Assembly (NCBI GenBank): GCA_033065855.1
Contig: JAVXUO010001101.1
Coordinates: 1-64,000 of the forward strand
From: Escallonia rubra
Taxonomy: Eukaryota; Streptophyta; Magnoliopsida; Escalloniales; Escalloniaceae
Length of the DNA: 64,000 nt
Direction: 5' to 3'
The notes under the pieces were generated by a model. That model saw only the letters and a list, made by a program, of their open reading frames with translations, ran no database searches and was not told the DNA's origin. Numbering within the stretch: the stretch's first letter is position 1; each line of letters opens with the position of its first letter. Positions 9,526-44,200 of this stretch are shown one piece after another. Made by a program: the position numbers and the translations under genes.

Positions 9526-9713
9526 CCGCACGCCGCTCCCGCGATGCCCGTCACCCAAAGTCGCGCGTTACAGCCGAATGACCCGTCGCCGACGACCGCA
9601 TACCATCACTCCCAACTTCGTCACTACTACATGTTGCATTCATTATCTTGTTATGATAGGTACACTTATATAGCTCACATCCTGTCTTCAAGACACCCGA
9701 CGCGCGCCCTTGC

Positions 9714-10080
9714 GCCATTCTCATGATACGTGCCCCGGCACCAAATATTGCTCCGCGACGTTCGTCGCCGCGCCCTCGCGCCATTCTCATGATACGTGCC
9801 CCAGCACCAAATATTGCTCCGCGACGTTCGTCGCCGCGCCCTCGCGCCATTCTCAGGATACGTGCCCCGACACCAAATATTGCTCCGCGACGTTCGTCGC
9901 CGCGCCCTCGCGCCATTCTCATGATACGTGCCCCGGCACCAAATATTGCTCCGCGACGTTCGTCGCCGCGCCCTTGCGCCATTCTCATGATACGTGCCCC
10001 GGCACCAAGTATTGCTTCGCGACGATCGTCGCCGCACTACTTTCACAACACGTGCCCCAGGCACCAGGTATTGTCTCGTG
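9714..10080. repeat. Tandem repeat, 66-bp unit, five good copies and one diverged
   Basis: GCCATTCTCATGATACGTGC starts copies at 9714, 9780, 9846, 9912 and 9978, spaced exactly 66 bases. A weaker sixth copy follows. Each unit carries GCACCAAATATTGC and GCGACGTTCGTCGC, the latter a short palindrome. The same repeat, inverted and with a 67-bp period, is found in the LTR at 43100-43600. Confidence 0.9.
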
Positions 10081-10123
10081 CTATAAGCACCGCGCTCATG
10101 CGCCACAATCATGTTGCATACTA

Positions 10124-10320
10124 CCGGGATGGGCTCACAACCTTATAGCCATCGCCGTCTCAATCAAAATGGGGGCTTCGGCCTCGTACCGGGATAGGCT
10201 CACAACCTTATAGCCATCGCCGTCTCAATCAAAAGGGGGGGGCTTCAGCCCCTATACCGGGATGGGCTCACAACCTCATAGCCATCGCCGTCACGGTCGC
10301 AGGGGGTTCCGGTACGAGGA
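10124..10320. repeat. Three tandem copies of a 65-68 bp LTR unit
   Basis: CCGGGATGGGCTCACAACC, or a one-base variant, starts units at 10124, 10189 and 10257. Each is followed by ATAGCCATCGCCGTC. The solo LTR has two copies of the same unit at about 42950-43115. Confidence 0.85.
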
Positions 10321-10758
10321 CCCCTCGCCACGGACTCGGAGCACTGAGCTGCGACCATGTCCACTCACGTTACTGTCGATCGTCGACATCACCAGGACAA
10401 TGACCCACGGGTCACTCCGGGACGGGAGCAGGTCTTCAGAGGGCATCGCGCCTAGTCCGCCTGGCAGTTGGCTACAGGGGTAACCCTCACCGCTGTCAGG
10501 TTCTCCGCGCGTCTCTTGACGCGCCTCATGGGATTCAGTAAGGGCTTGGATTGGTGGCTGGGGCAACGGGCTTACTCTGATCATGCTACCGCGGTATGGT
10601 CAGTCTTCTCAGACAGGTAGAGCGACGCTGTGTGGGGCAAGCAACGCGAATTTAGGAACCGGCAGTCCGACGGAGAACCGATATTTTGGGACCCCCTGGT
10701 GACGTGTCACTCCCAGGGAACGACATGTGGCACTTTATGACATAAGCACCCTGTTTCC

Positions 10759-16123: not shown

Positions 16124-16747
16124 TGTTTGCGTTGCTGGGCAAACTCACAATCGATTGGTGCGCCGATGGCATAATCGATTGGTGCGCCGATGGCATAATC
16201 AATTAATAGTATGGGATCTTTTTTGCCCCTAGGGCCTGGGGACTTCTCCGAAAATGGAAAATGAAGACGAAACGTAGAAAGTAGAAATATTGAACGCCCA
16301 TAAAAGACAAAAGAGCTTTCGATTGATTGCAAATGTTTACATAAGAATGTTTTCAAGCCTAGAAACTAAATTTCCTATAAATGGCAACAAAAGCCTCTAA
16401 ACTAAAGAAAGAAAAAAGACTTGAAAAAGTCTTGATATGTCTGGTTGATTGTGTCCTCCTTTTCTTCTTTGACCCAATATTTATACTAGAGACTTTGTAA
16501 AAAATAACTACCATCACAAGAAACTACACACTTAGTGAGATAAACTACCCACTTAAGAAATAACCACCCACTAATAAGTAACCAACCACACTTATCCCTT
16601 ATCAATAGGACACATTTTCAGAAGTTGGTTTCTTTCACTTCTTGAATCTTCAATTATTTCTTCAAAAATAATAAAAAGTAAATGCCATTTAGTGTCATTT
16701 AATCAAAGTGAGCTTATTAGTGAAAAATATATTTTGTGGTGCAAACA
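16124..16747 (-). repeat. 3' LTR of the 3.04 kb element
   Basis: It is 624 bp and closely similar to the other LTR, including GGCCTGGGGACTTCTC and the shared block of CCACCCACTAATAAGTAACC. It differs by a ~26-bp duplicated unit (CGATTGGTGCGCCGATGGCA twice at 16152-16200) that the other LTR has once. Confidence 0.9.
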
Positions 16748-18566: not shown

Positions 18567-19166
18567 TGTTTGCGCTGCTGGGCAAACTCACTATCGATTG
18601 GTGCGCCGACGGCACAATCGATTAATAGTGTGGGATCTTTTTTGCCCCTAGGGCCTGGGGACTTCTCTGAAAATGGAAAATGAAGATGAAATGTAGAAAG
18701 TAGAAAGATTGAGCGCCCATAAAAGACAAGAGAGCTTTCGATTGATTGCAAATGTTTACACATGAATGTTTTCAAGCCTAGAAACTAAATTTCCTATCGA
18801 TGGCAACAAAAACCTCTAAACTAAAGAAAGAAAAAAGACTTGAAAAAGTCTTGATATGTCTGGTTGATTGTGTCCTCCTTTTCTTCTTTGACCTAATATT
18901 TATACTAGAGGCTTTGTAAAAAATAACTACCATCACAAGAAACTACCCACTTAGTGAGATAAACTACCCACTTAAGAAATAACCACCCACTAATAAGTAA
19001 CCAACCACAATTATCCGTAATCAATAGGACACATTTTCAGAAGTTGGTTTCTTTCACTTCTTGAATCTTCCATTATTTCTTCAGAAATAATAAAAAGTAA
19101 ATGACATTTAGTGGCATTTAATCAAAGTGAACTTATTAGTGAAAAATATATTTTGTGGTGCAAACA
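18567..19166 (-). repeat. 5' LTR of the 3.04 kb element
   Basis: It is 600 bp, with termini TGTTTGC...GCAAACA. It is nearly the same as the 3' LTR except for scattered substitutions and one copy fewer of the CGATTGGTGCGCC unit. The minus strand would carry the promoter for the internal frame. Confidence 0.9.

Positions 19167-23750: not shown

Positions 23751-23820
<70 letters not shown>
23741..23820. repeat. (TG)n/(TA)n microsatellite, left flank of the first hairpin element
   Basis: (TGTA)n and (TG)n grade into about 30 TA units that stop exactly where the TIR begins. Confidence 0.95.
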
Positions 23821-23823
<3 letters not shown>

Positions 23824-24164
23824 AGCTGATCCATTGCTCGCGCTGGCAACTTGGGATAAGTTGCCAGCGCGATCTGGCCGTTCACGCGCGATCTATGGAC
23901 GACCCAGATCTTGTTTTTGCGTTTTTTTCAAGTTCGTCCGCCACATAATGTAGCGGACGATTTTTTGACAAAAATACCCTCAAGCAGTACAGTACAGTGC
24001 TCGTCCGCTACATTATGTAGCAGACAAATAAGGTCGTCTTCTCTTTCTCTCTACCTTCTCTCATTAATGTGTTCTGGCTTTTCTCTTTCTCTTTCTTTTC
24101 TCTCACCACTTTTTGTTTTCTCTCTCATCCAGTCATCCTCCTCCTTCTCTCTCTCTCTCTCTCT

Positions 24165-24330
24165 CTCGCTGCACAAGATATGAGGCCATATCAATGGGAA
24201 TTGCTCTTCTTAGGATTATTCCGGACCGCCCTATCTTGTCCTGTGTAGCCTATGCTTTTGCGTTTGCCATCTCAAGCCCAACCGGAGTGGCCATTGGAAT
24301 CAACTTTGACCTTTTGAGCCTATGCAGATA
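24165..24330 (+). pseudogene. Captured ZIP zinc-transporter exon in element 1
   Basis: The frame reads [20 protein letters not shown], then [20 protein letters not shown]. This is a ZIP-family segment in which the membrane helix carries AISSPIGVGIGI. The preceding bases CTGCACAAGATA would give LHKI, as in plant ZIP2/ZIP11-like proteins, but two bases are lost between it and EAIS. Similarity ends soon after GIGI-type residues. The piece lies between the CT-rich block and unassigned sequence, as in Pack-type transposons. No function is expected. Confidence 0.7.
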
Positions 24331-24837
24331 TCTTCTTTGTCTGCAAAGTGGTTCTACTCCCTGTTTTGAGAGTACTGGAAAAGCGGAACTAATTTCCAGG
24401 GAGGGCTAGTGGCAGTTTATTGGGTATTGCATGAGCCTTCTGCTGGGAATGTATATTAGACATAATTGATAACAAGTGGGACATTTAAAGTTCATACTGA
24501 GGGTGGATCTTGCATTTAAAGCTCTCCAAAAAGATAGAAAACATACCTTATCTTCTACCAACACAGTTACAACATTCTACATCGTTGTTTTATGAGCGAT
24601 TAACTTGAATTTTGAAAGAGAAAGGAGAGAGAAAGAGAAAGACTGTACTGTACTATAGAAAGAGACTCGTCCGCTACATAATGTAGCGGACAAGCACTGT
24701 ACTGTACTGCTCCAAAAATATGCGATCGGTTGTTTCTCTCTCATCCTCTTCTCTCTAATTGGTTGTTTCTCTCTCATCCTCTTCTCTCTAATTCGTAGCA
24801 ACTCAGGAGTAATATAGAAACATAGCTTAATCCATAC

Positions 24838-25140
24838 ATGCATGTTTGTTCTCAACTTCTTAGAATGATCACATCAGTTAACTACCCACCCACTACATCA
24901 GTTATGAACTTGATTGAAGCCAGTAATGGCCGCAGGGATATCAGCACCTTTAATGTAAAGCTGCTCATACTTGGTAGAAATTTTCACGAGAAATTTAAGC
25001 AGATGCATCCCATGAAGATCAAAATTCCTGGAAGTATCCAACTAAAATTGCAAATTGGCCAGGGATTTTGCACTCATACCAGCCTCGTGGGTCTCACAGA
25101 TGACTGCTCCGAGCATGTTGGCATCACCCAACTGCAGATG
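24838..25140 (-). pseudogene. Second coding-like fragment in element 1, origin not recognised
   Basis: The minus strand reads LGDANMLGAVICETHEAGMS and, after a stop and a frame-preserving stretch, KYEQLYIKGADIPAAITGFN. The amino-acid texture is that of a real globular protein, unlike the surrounding simple repeats. I cannot name the family. Confidence 0.4.
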
Positions 25141-25459
25141 AGGATGCGAGAGAGAGAGAGAGAGAGAGAGAACAAAAAAGCGTTCAGAGAAAAGAGAGAG
25201 AGAGAAAAGTGTTCAGAGAAAAGAGAGAGAAAGAGAAAAGTTATAACACATTATTTGTCCGCTACATAATGTAGCGGACGAGCACTGTACTGTACTGCTT
25301 GAGGGTATTTTTGTCAAAAAATCGTCCGCTACATTATGTGGCGGACGAACTTGAAAAAAACGCAAAAAAAAGATCTGGGTCGTCCATAGATCGCGCGTGG
25401 ACGGCCAGATCGCGCTGGCAACTTATCCCAAGTTGCCAGCGCGAGCAATGGATCAGCTC

Positions 25460-25461
<2 letters not shown>

Positions 25462-25509
<48 letters not shown>
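25462..25509. repeat. (TA)n shared by the two hairpin elements
   Basis: About 24 TA units are the only sequence between the right end of element 1 and the left end of element 2. Confidence 0.95.
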
Positions 25510-25512
<3 letters not shown>

Positions 25513-26356
25513 CTGATCCGTTGATAGCGTTAGCAAAATAGGAGAAGTTGCAAACGCGATCTGGTCGTCCATCCTGAAAGGATGGACGGTCCAGATCTTT
25601 TTTTTGCATTTTTTTTAAGTACGTCCGCTACATTATGTAGCGGACAATTTTTTGACAAAAAGGCCATCCAACTTCGTCCGCTACATTATGTAGCGGACTA
25701 GTTTTCAGACCTTTGTTTCTCTTTCTCTCTCCTTTCTATCATTATTTTCCTGACATGTTTGTCTCTCTCTCTCTCTCTCATCAGTATTCTCTCTGCAAAA
25801 GGAAATTCGGGAACTGACTGGCCTTTTTTCCCGTCACTATGAAAAAATTAGAAGAAGGCTCGTCTCAAAAAAATTTGGATTCTAGGTCCAAATATGCCAG
25901 CGAACTAGTAGATCATCTTCTCTTTTCTGACTGGGCGGGCGGTCCTTTTCTTTGGGATTTGTTCAAAAGATAGAGCTGTGATGTTTCCTTCCCCTTCTCT
26001 TGAATTTGAGCAAGCACGCCATTCTCAGATGGTCTGGAAAGATCAGCAAGGCATTTTCAGGACATTGAAGACTTATAGACTCAATGGAAGCTTATCCGAG
26101 ATCTGGCCCTTGAAATCATTTTTAGATAAATCAAGGTACTCTAACCCACTAAGCCTTCAAATCATTTTTAGATAAATCAACTCTGCCAATCTATTCTACA
26201 CACATATCTGGTGAATACACATCCAGTGTTACAGGTTGTTCATTGTCTCACTGCTGGCTAACGACCCATGTACATAATAAGAAGGCTGGAAGAGGAGGAT
26301 GAGAGAGAAAATGGTGAGAGAAAAGAGAGAGAAAGATAAACAAGTTAAAAAAATGA

Positions 26357-26394
<38 letters not shown>

Positions 26395-26744
26395 AGAGAA
26401 AGAAGCCAGAACATTAATGACAGAAAGAAAAAAAAGGTCTGAAAACTAGTCCGCTACATAATGTAGCGGACGGAGATAAAGGAGAGAGAGAAAGAAAAAG
26501 AAATCAGAACATTAATGACAGAAAGAGAAAAATGGTTTGAAAACAAGTCCGCTACATAATGTAGAGGACGGACTCTTTTTAAGCTGGAGGGTATTTTTGT
26601 CAAAAAGTTGTCCGCTAAACAATGTAGCGGATGTACTTAAAAAAATGCAAAAAAAATATATGGACCGTCCATCCTTTCAGGATGGACGGCCAGATCGCGT
26701 TTGCAACTTCTCCTATTTTGCTAGCGTTATCAACGGATCAGCTC
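25510..26744. mobile_element. Hairpin-rich TIR element 2, same family, in the same (TA)n
   Basis: It starts GAGCTGATCCGTTGATAGCG and ends CGTTATCAACGGATCAGCTC, flanked by TA repeats (25462-25509 and 26745-26766). The end design matches element 1: a terminal GAGCTGATCC, then a hairpin (GTCCATCC, TGAAA, GGATGGAC), then TTTTTTGACAAAAA and the 23-bp palindrome. The palindrome occurs five times here. The rest of the TIR sequence differs, so this is a separate subfamily. GA- and CT-rich blocks and a captured LRR fragment lie inside. No transposase. Confidence 0.85.
25975..26185 (-). pseudogene. Captured leucine-rich-repeat fragment in element 2
   Basis: The minus strand reads GLEYLDLSKNDFKGQI, the plant extracellular LRR consensus (LxxLxLSxNxFxGxIP), then DKLPLSL and a stop. 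A second partial copy (VDLSKNDLK) lies just upstream in a shifted frame. This fits a piece of an LRR receptor gene. Confidence 0.65.
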
Positions 26745-26766
26745 CATATATATATATATATATATA
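26745..26766. repeat. (TA)n right flank of hairpin element 2
   Basis: The TA run begins directly after the TIR. Confidence 0.9.
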
Positions 26767-41200: not shown

Positions 41201-44200
41201 TTTCGTTGTTATACTCTACTTGATTGGAGGTACAACCTCCAACTCCCGGGGGTGTGCCAGGGTTCACCAGACTAATGTACACGGTAAGGGTATGAAAAAC
41301 AACAAAATAAATGGAATTAACATTTGTGAGTGCACTATAACAAACATTTCAAAGAAAGGCAATCTGTGTTTGCTTGCCGGTCACAAGCTTTTATTCTACT
41401 TGATTTGATGTAAATATTTCCCCCCCTCCCCCGCGCGCGCGCTCGCGCACTTCTTAAACATATCGGATGAATAGGGACACTTTTAGTTCATGGTTAGTCT
41501 AGTGCAGTATAATTTTTGGTACATTGATTTCGGTGTCACTTTAGATGCTTTGTTTTGACTTTGACGATAGCTCCAAATTTTCTTGCAGTTGAAAATCGTG
41601 TACATAGAGCAAACAGAGATGCTTGTGCTGTGGAAGGTCAGAAAGGAGGTAAGTCAATCTTGTTCAATGACATTACTTCTAAGCACTCTATTGAAGCCTG
41701 ACCAATAAAATTGAACAATAATCAAGGAAGAACACGTACGCTTGTTGCTAGCTGGGAGAAGAAAGACAGGTTTCCTTATCATGAGGGTGTTGCTTCCAAC
41801 AATCTCTCTGGGGCCGTATCTGCTGTTAACATGCTGGCAACTAATGCGGTATGGTTATTTCTATTGTACACTCTGTTCAAACACCTTTATGATGTTGATT
41901 AGTGACAGGGGAGCATGGCTTCAGTTTTTCTTTGAGTTACCACTTCAGAATTTACTTTTAATAATAGCACTACCTTGTAGGATAACACTCTGTAGATGTG
42001 TTTGATATTACAGTACAATAAAATGGCATTGTAATATGGCTTTGGCCAGCACCAAGACTATGTTTTACTACAAGGTCGTTTTAGTAGATATGGATATAGT
42101 GCCTTCACGCTTTACCTTGAAGTGAACATCGACATTATCAGTCATGTTATTTTTTTGTTGCCAAGAAAAAAGGGTTCGTTGCCACGTAGAGGTGCCACAA
42201 AGGATGCAGTCTGAGTTAGCTTCCAGGTGGCCAAAGTGGGAGACAACAAGGATGGAGTAAGGGCTGAGAGCAAGGCTCCCCAGACAGGTCGCGAGGGCTG
42301 GCAGCGCTGCGCAAGCAGGGTGCCGACAAACAGGGCCGGCGGTCGACAGTCCGAGTCAAGGGTGCAGCGTCAAGCGTCAGAGTGTCAGGAGTCCAAATGT
42401 ATTTCTCTCACTAGAAATCCAGAGAGAATAAGTTTTAGAGAGAGAAAGTGAAATGTCGAAACGAGAGAGAACTCCTCAAATAAGCTCCGAAGTCCACTAT
42501 TTATAGGCACAAATGTGCACGTGTCATCAGCCGACACTTGTCGTCCCCTGGGAGTGACACATTGCCGGGGGGTCCCATAGTATTTATTCTCCGTTGGACT
42601 GCCGGTCCCCGAATTCGTGCTGCCCTGCCCTTGCAGCATCCTTCTGCCTGTCTGAGAAGACTGACAACACTGCGGTAGCATGATCAGAGTAGCCCGTTGC
42701 CCAGCCACCGGTCCAAGCCCTTACTGAATCCCACGAGATGCGTCAAGAGACGCGCAGAGATACTGACAGCGGCGAGGGTCGCCCCTGTAGCCAACTGCCA
42801 GGTGGACTAGGCACGATGCCCTCCGAGGACCTGCTCCTGTCCCGGAGTGACCCGGGGGTCATTGCCCTGGTGGTGCCGACGATCAATGGAAACATGAGTG
42901 GACATGCTCGCATCTCAGTGCTCAGAGTCCGTGGCGAGGGGTCCTCGTGCCGGAGCACTACCAGCGGAGCCCCCTGTGATTGTGCCGGCGATGGCTTTAA
43001 GGTTGTGAGCCCATCCCGTTGCGAGCGGTCCTCGTGCCGGAGCACTACGAACGAAGCCTCCCCGTGATTGTGCCGGCGATGGCTTTAAGGTTGTGAGCCC
43101 ATCCCGTAAGTACGTAACATGATTGCGGTGCATGGGTGCGGCGACTACCGTCGCGAGACAATACCTAGTGTCGGGGAACATATCATGAGAATGGTGCATG
43201 AGAGCGGTGACGAGTGTCGCGGGACGATACTTGGTGCCGGGGGCACGTATCATGAGAATGGTGCATGAGAGCGGCGACGAGTGTCGCGGGACGATACTTG
43301 GTGCCGGGGGCACGTATCATGAGAATGGTGCATGAGAGCGGCGACGAGTGTCGCGGGATGATACTTGGTGCCGGGGGCACGTATCATGAGAATGGTGCAT
43401 GAGAGCGGCGACGAGTGTCGCAGGACGATACTTGGTGCCCGGGGCACGTATCATGAGAATGGTGCATGAGAGCGACGACGAGTGTCGCGGGACGAAACTT
43501 GGTGCCGGGGGCACGTATCATGAGAATGGTGCATGAGAGTGGCGACGAGTGTCGCGGGATGATAATTGGTGCCGGGGGCACGTAGTGCGACAGAGAGCCA
43601 GGGGGGATAGTTGCATCAATGGCGCGGCGGCGTGTGAGAGTGCGGTGCGCAGGCACCGTCGACGAAGGTCGAGGAGACGGCGCACAGGAGACGAGAGTCG
43701 AGGAGCTGGTGCGCGGACGCGGGGTGACAAAGGTCGCGGAGTTGGCGCGCGGACGCGGGCGACGAAGGTCGCATAGATGGCGCACGGGCGACAAGAGTCG
43801 CGAAGCTGGCGTGCGGACGCGGGCGACGAAGGTCGCAGAGATGGTGTGCGGGCGACGAGAGTCGCGGAGCCGTTGCGTGGACGCGGGCGACGAAGGTCGC
43901 GAAGATGGCGACGAAGGTCGGGAGATGGCATGGGCGACGAAGGTCGAGGAGATGGTGTGCGGGTGACGAGAGTCGCGGAGCCGGTGCGCGGACGCGGGCG
44001 ACGAAGGTCGCGGAGATGGCGCACGGGCGACAAGAGTCGCGGAGCTGGCGTGCGGACGCGGGCGACGAAGGTCGCGGAGATGGTGTGCGGGCGACGAGAG
44101 TCACGGAGCTGGCGTGCGGACGCGGGCGGGGAAGGTTGTGGAGATGGCGCGGGCGACGAATGTCGCGGAGATGGTGTGCGGGCGACGAGAGTCGCGGAGC

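Follow-up and report, generated by a model that had tools for sequence, protein, structure and literature searches.

A pair of elements joined by TA repeats

Two terminal inverted repeat (TIR) elements, A and B, lie end to end in the window, by which we mean the whole stretch of 64,000 nucleotides of Escallonia rubra DNA that was analysed. A (TA)30 tract (positions 23761 to 23820) leads into element A, a non-autonomous family member of 1,641 bp (23821 to 25461) with intact GG...CC ends, which begins GGGAGCTGATCC and finishes GGATCAGCTCCC. It is joined by a pure (AT)24 tract of 48 bp (25462 to 25509) to element B, a second non-autonomous member of 1,236 bp (25510 to 26745), which begins GAGCTGATCC, finishes GGATCAGCTCC and is followed by an (AT)10 tract (26746 to 26765); all three tracts were read directly from the sequence. 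The left TIR of A (23821 to 24050, plus strand) and its right TIR (25232 to 25461, minus strand) are the two arms of a single inverted match of 230 nt that is 95% complementary. The corresponding arms of B (25510 to 25615, plus strand, and 26639 to 26745, minus strand) form a match of 106 nt, likewise 95% complementary, that extends to 26744, with the final C read directly. The left tip of B is without an extra G and its right tip carries one extra C, for which reason we place its end at 26745, a small correction to the 26744 of the first-pass annotation.

Direct reading and inverted self-comparison confirm the arrangement originally described for this locus: common tips, different interiors and only TA repeats around and between the elements. 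Similarity between A and B is confined to the terminal regions and to short pieces around a repeated 23-nt palindrome, and the interiors therefore differ. Because the two belong to the same family and occupy the same (TA)n, they might be regarded as one duplicated element, or as two halves of one inverted structure. We give this reading practically no credence, since A and B each possess their own TIR pair, their interiors do not match, and most of A is matched at four other places (92-94% identity, among the matches listed in a genome similarity search), where the match ends near the end of A. Nor are the mirrored ends part of some more extensive inverted duplication: these tips recur at thousands of further sites, the flanks differ among those copies that were read elsewhere in the genome, and the long inverted matches in the window stop at the TA tracts with no extension beyond them.

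At each end a 10-base tip precedes a 13-bp stem. In A, tip hairpin 1 (13-bp stem, 5-nt loop) was read at 23840 to 23870, with its mirror copy at 25412 to 25442, while the left copy in B was placed at 25527 to 25557 by the stem analysis of tips. B also has a second hairpin (25567 to 25587; arms GTCCATCC and GGATGGAC), which recurs in the autonomous-type elements C1820, C277, C131 and C451. The 23-nt palindrome, GTCCGCTACATWATGTAGCGGAC, is present in five copies per element: at 23936-23958, 24003-24025, 24669-24691, 25257-25279 and 25324-25346 in A (at most one mismatch), and at 25623-25645, 25676-25698, 26449-26471, 26547-26569 and 26610-26632 in B (at most three mismatches).

Stem pairing was scored in 54 of the 96 sampled tips described below, 21 having been dropped as the downstream anchor was not in place and another 21 as identical repeats. 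Over these 54 tips, 612 of 702 stem cells were paired, against a mean of 582 (s.d. 5.8) after the 3' arms had been swapped, and none of 2,000 such swaps reached 612. Changes on both sides were found at five stem pairs, one of the five in a single tip, and the two pairs next to the apex pair were broken in 27 and 20 of the 54 tips. The two-sided changes are suggestive of a covarying tip hairpin, in a comparison where swapping ignores the relatedness of the tips; template-switching repair within the palindrome would give the same stem pattern as selection for shape. The notion of hairpin-built ends nevertheless gains support from these data.

Two segments inside A may be passenger pieces. The first (24170 to 24302, plus strand) recurs at C927, C2826 and C2065, and the second (24329 to 24454, plus strand) matches C1092 in two blocks. 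These four places are not among the listed element places that match A, and they may be parts of other elements. No Pfam family scored above its cut-off in the six interior frames of A and B. A resemblance of the first piece to a ZIP transporter was considered, but the Pfam search did not confirm it and we make no such claim. Pack-MULEs are known for the capture of host segments, and the pieces within A would fit an event of that type. The earlier suggestion of passenger gene pieces is only partly supported, and for A alone, by two segments recurring at four places, with no Pfam match above cut-off in the interior frames of either element.

Other repeats were seen in the window. Direct repeats of 574 bp (16174-16747 and 18593-19166), 95.5% identical and about 1.85 kb apart, are possibly a small LTR element. 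Two minisatellite-bearing stretches in opposite orientation (9692-10400 and 42862-43553) are 72% identical over 747 columns, a pair that a stricter self-comparison of the window did not pick up.

Seating and insertion in TA repeats

A 27-base tip pattern, allowing at most two mismatches, matched the 566-Mb genome 4,918 times (2,450 forward and 2,468 reverse), whereas the reversed pattern gave 0 forward and 0 reverse matches in the same genome, so chance is excluded. Seating was scored in 96 distinct tips from 62 loci with at most three mismatches to a 20-base tip pattern, tips lying less than 40 bases from a locus edge being left out; this is a convenience sample of pattern matches, similarity matches and transposase loci, in which array neighbours are not independent. 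Pure TA of at least 8 bp directly adjoins 80 of the 96 tips, and at least 16 bp adjoins 71, whereas by the same measure 34 of 60,799 positions elsewhere in the window, away from A and B, adjoin at least 8 bp. A TA run of at least 8 bp lies within 40 bp of 95 of the 96 tips versus 15 of 5,000 random positions; the longest run within 40 bp of the remaining tip is 6 bp. The run of G preceding GAGCTGATCC comprises two bases in 74 of the 96 tips, one in 7 and none in 15. Most copies therefore reside in a TA repeat rather than outside one, and the proposed targeting to TA microsatellites is strongly supported, both by the seating of the tips and by the unoccupied relatives described below.

Stacking recurs elsewhere. 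Thirteen junctions of two family tips, each 18-81 bp across and hence all under 100 bp, indicate that the twin arrangement of the window is common. At C83 and C651 two forward tips follow in succession, the first element being cut, and a different MULE is apparently nested in the C681 element, observations that bear on whether elements of this kind ever interrupt one another. Ends of family elements that break off within hairpin 1 or close to it and pass directly into TA were observed at L021 (C83), L025 (C90), L077 (C651) and L086 (the right end of C681), which suggests that such ends are cut back and then filled up again with TA. The TA tracts are also shared with another tip family (GGAGCCGATCC then TCTACCGGTAGA or similar), noticed at L004, L005 and L092, so that related families stack together.

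Unoccupied relatives of the insertion sites were sought by joining the flanks of eight elements and comparing them with the genome, the best 40 of 4,564 candidates being scored. Matches spanning the junction were obtained for four of the eight: C654 (C2923, 83%), C1441 (C1440, C1157 and C1597, 84-89%), C281 (five places, 87-90%) and C721 (16 places, 78-90%), examples being C2923:6638-6843 and C1764:394689-394950. Among the same best 40, three of the eight joined flanks gave no junction-spanning match, and the flanks of C234 matched two other places at which the spacing indicates an element too. The queries for three of the four matched sites carried an inserted (TA)5, the C654 query having no TA put in; as the empty sites differ from the query by -26 to +42 bases in length, their TA length is not established by the comparison.

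These relatives bear on the idea that the tracts are made by insertion, through filler or slippage synthesis, such that the element carries or creates its microsatellite and no targeting occurs. Tracts reach 82 bp at some tips, a cut end is followed by TA and then by a complete tip at C83, C90 and C651, and short TA sites are described as expanding after insertion of TAFTA in maize (PMC5907723), all of which such synthesis would explain. We nonetheless consider it improbable, given that alignments to unoccupied relatives run through the junction at four sites and that an imperfect TA target at C654 was duplicated exactly. At that site an exact 9-bp duplication, TAGTATATA, stands on both sides of the element, with no match at 10 or 11 bp. 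It is the only insertion with an unambiguous 9-bp duplication, and its length falls within the 8-11 bp typical of Mutator-like elements (MULEs), a superfamily whose long TIRs are also seen here (230 and 106 nt, 95%).

Inside alternating TA a duplication is unreadable but its parity is readable, and we therefore scored phase: a duplication of odd length makes the base just ahead of the element identical to the one just behind it. Of 29 element pairs, 8 were set aside because the tip G-run was incomplete, leaving 21 with intact ends; scoring was confined to the 18 of these whose two flanks both alternate TA for 9 bp. The phase is odd in 14 of these 18 (p 0.015). C1727 and C56 are also odd but were left out, their flanks not alternating TA, and C654, which a mechanical scoring would count as even, was omitted because its duplication is read directly. 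An element class of about 200-250 bp, collected by pattern search, gave 16 odd cases and 1 even (p 1.4e-4). With three repeats removed, the union of both sets is odd in 27 of 32 cases (binomial p 5.7e-5) and even in five, a count in which some pairs may be duplicated copies; a looser count of 16 odd in 20 pairs (union 29 of 34) had been tightened to these figures. Parity speaks for an odd duplication length in most elements and does not fix it at 9. For a length of exactly 9 we rely on C654 together with the known behaviour of Mutator-like elements.

It has been speculated (PMC5907723) that elements of this type enter microsatellites by homologous recombination of a circular intermediate accompanied by microsatellite filler, and not by cut-and-paste. 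The five even cases would suit that proposal, as would flanks that do not match as duplications (unequal ones at C1727 and C182, and (GA)n/(TC)n beside one end at C25). For the present family we judge it quite improbable: Mutator cut-and-paste predicts both the odd excess of 27 in 32 and the exact 9-bp duplication at C654, whereas recombination with random filler predicts neither. To judge from the sequences, insertion looks like Mutator cut-and-paste.

A candidate transposase between related tips

The first-pass annotation regarded the mobilizing enzyme as unknown and pointed to an autonomous copy as the thing to look for; that position has given way to a candidate transposase of FAR1-MULE-SWIM layout that lies between matching tips. 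Searches of the genome for the MULE and FAR1 domains returned 3,309 and 2,348 candidates, respectively, the best 150 of each being listed. An autonomous-type hairpin pattern (GGCCAAATAGGATATCTTGCC) matched 190 places (control 0), and among the 100 of these that were listed there are 34 opposite-tip pairs, 25 of them longer than 4 kb. Nine of the 25, whose tip hairpin is not that of A and B, enclose a listed MULE match (positions entered from the listings): C2418, C1391, C131, C277, C3084, C3000, C2035, C1174 and C696, with spans of 5.4-9.5 kb. Five of them (C2418, C1391, C131, C277 and C2035) retain an open frame of 782 aa. Among the matches listed, the other 16 long pairs (for example C503, C854 and C1671) show neither MULE nor FAR1, and these may be decayed or their match simply unlisted. 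The upstream tip is also found beside six more MULE matches (C1820, C699, C451, C142, C17 and C70), and in all 15 the distance from domain to tip, measured by hand, is 1,513-1,683 bases.

The frame of the C1391 copy (L066; 779 aa) contains, according to Pfam, FAR1 at 48-146, MULE (PF10551, 1.6e-33) at 268-361 and SWIM at 565-584; the Jittery clade has the same order, an N-terminal FAR1, a central MULE and a C-terminal SWIM domain. At the protein level L066 shares 98.4-99.6% identity with six other loci, and no solved structure was matched by sequence. Among the listed places, the upstream tip accompanies 8 of 20 fetched loci of the L066 clade versus 0 of 10 from a second MULE clade, 49-56% identical.

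Five loci of the L066 clade weakly match the A or B TIRs near their ends. Adjoining sequence was retrieved at five loci (C1820, C451, C277, C131 and C2418), all five of which have the hairpin; GGGAGCTGATCC is in or next to a TA repeat at C1820, C451 and C277, C131 is without the first tip bases, and the 5' tip of C2418 is altered. Ends in TA were read at C451, C131, C277, C1391 and C2035, and in imperfect TA at C1820. The reading of TA flanks covered five of the nine MULE-enclosing elements. Both ends of C277, C1391 and C2035 lie in a TA repeat, with odd phase in all three, and the two 9-mers flanking C2035 differ at one base. At L090 (C2418:123500-123830), the altered 5' tip and its own flank make an inverted repeat across the TA tract (AAGGGTGAAGT ... 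ACTTCACCCTT), as if this end had been copied by fold-back synthesis.

The tip, the stem ends, hairpin 2 and the palindrome region are common to the autonomous-type ends and those of A and B. The related elements of about 5-9.5 kb are probable full-length relatives carrying a predicted transposase, and the shared ends suggest that this FAR1-MULE-SWIM candidate moves A and B. Because the autonomous-type tip hairpin differs from the hairpins of A and B, a still nearer autonomous partner may exist.

Other sources were considered. The L046-clade MULEs were rejected as partners: A and B have no match in them, and the ends of the seven that were viewed are unlike the family TIR. Two short pieces read at tips near FAR1 matches at C2128 and C528 held further family ends in (TA)n and stopped short of the FAR1 matches. 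A different FAR1-MULE, inside the family element at C681/C699, was initially taken for the autonomous copy and could be proposed as the mover, since a FAR1-MULE-SWIM gene lies in C681 between two family TIRs that stand about 11.5 kb apart, the right one truncated within hairpin 1. That gene, however, sits between its own, different inverted repeats, and we read it as a nested insertion; among the tips listed, compared by hand, none lay near another listed contig with a copy of the gene, and its intact relative L087 gives matches of only 22-27 bases to family elements. We rejected this candidate, and a role for it as the mover is very unlikely. C681 and C699 have a common left flank, are about 98% identical and accordingly count as one insertion event. 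The FAR1-MULE apparently nested in this element (L085/L086, C681:17250-29100, and L084, C699:86300-94300) has hairpin-bearing inverted repeats starting GGATTCGGATCC.

In the explanation that we favour, A and B would belong to a plant MULE family whose members go into (TA)n tracts that are already there. Neither would be autonomous, and both would most likely be mobilized in trans by a FAR1-MULE-SWIM transposase of Jittery-like domain layout, supplied by the related elements of about 5-9.5 kb that have similar tips, palindromes and hairpins. This enzyme would attach to the long TIRs, cut the element out and insert it at a TA-rich site, where the staggered cut would yield a 9-bp duplication that is invisible inside the TA repeat. 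Each insertion would leave TA repeat on both sides, either of which could receive the next, and independent insertions would thereby stack end to end in the manner of A and B. We place the probability of this explanation as a whole, a TA-seeking MULE family moved in trans by the FAR1-MULE-SWIM enzyme through cut-and-paste and stacking, at roughly 87%. Three things are inferred here: that A and B are substrates of this enzyme, the means by which it locates TA repeats, and which of the two elements inserted first.

As to how TA repeats might be found, one doubtful but conceivable answer is that a Jittery-type transposase recognizes extruded hairpins at its own ends and in the target, reading both by shape as well as by letters. 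The idea arises because the arms of the 13-bp hairpin change together, the ends carry palindromes and (TA)n is itself a cruciform-forming palindrome. If true, hairpin recognition would account for TA targeting and stacking by one rule.

Relation to known microsatellite-targeting elements

How some Mutator-like elements find TA microsatellites is an unsettled matter, for which PMC5907723 offers recombination of circles. With thousands of tips, probable full-length relatives that have open frames and unoccupied paralogous sites, the present family makes the question testable. TA phase on both sides of an element is a simple measure of duplication length where the duplication is hidden; in the present family this measure indicates an odd length, in agreement with 9-bp cut-and-paste. 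In the parts consulted of PMC4486113, PMC5907723 and PMC8449440, the three papers to which our literature comparison on this point was confined, phase does not appear as a readout of duplication length.

The kind of element is already described, as MuTAnT, SaTar, TAFT, Micron and Ac-mMITE, with TAFT and Micron represented here by what citing papers report. Foldback-ended, TA-targeting Mutator-like elements are described in Medicago (PMC4486113), and Micron itself is argued to be a non-autonomous Mutator-like element (PMC5907723). The first-pass annotation had likened the pair to Micron while allowing for a separate family: the pair does represent a new sequence family, set apart by description, but one of the same kind. 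It shares with the microsatellite-targeted MULEs the flanking of most copies by (TA)n and the stacking of adjacent copies.

MuTAnT of Medicago truncatula, as portrayed in PMC4486113, is likewise Mutator-like with most copies in (TA)n, has 9-nt duplications at its few non-TA sites, possesses long foldback TIRs made of modules with a variable number of terminal G/C, and has an autonomous relative, AutoMuTAnT, that encodes a Jittery-like transposase and lies in a TA repeat. AutoMuTAnT is given as 4,873 bp with a protein of 833 aa (PMC4486113), unlike the elements of about 5-9.5 kb found here, five of which have the 782-aa frame. Going by the description in the same paper, the thousands of tips and the repeated 23-nt palindromes at the ends also distinguish the present family from MuTAnT (PMC4486113).

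The SaTar elements of guayule and rice, including rSaTar2/Micron, are depicted as non-autonomous MULEs that are flanked by microsatellite and stacked end to end, with autonomous relatives in microsatellite as well (PMC5907723). The same account reports 10-bp duplications at non-satellite sites, compared with 9 bp in the one readable duplication here, and doubts cut-and-paste at satellite sites, which the TA phase of the present family supports (PMC5907723). Ac-mMITE of pineapple resembles A and B in that its short TIR elements lie in (TA)n and form clusters by inserting next to one another, and in having GA as its first bases and sometimes (GA)n next to it, as at C25; the description available for pineapple records no autonomous partner, whereas a strong candidate exists here (PMC8449440).

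The predicted transposase, finally, resembles those of the Jittery clade (group 36), plant MULE enzymes with an N-terminal FAR1 and a C-terminal SWIM (or CCHC) domain in one ORF, and with TIRs of 39-292 bp in most members (PMC6446971). Within a Hop subgroup from plants and fungi, half of the members are also reported to have FAR1 (PMC6446971), and the likeness to Jittery proposed here is one of domain order. Set beside these systems, what is new is this sequence family, its probable autonomous partner, the TA phase test and a covarying tip hairpin.
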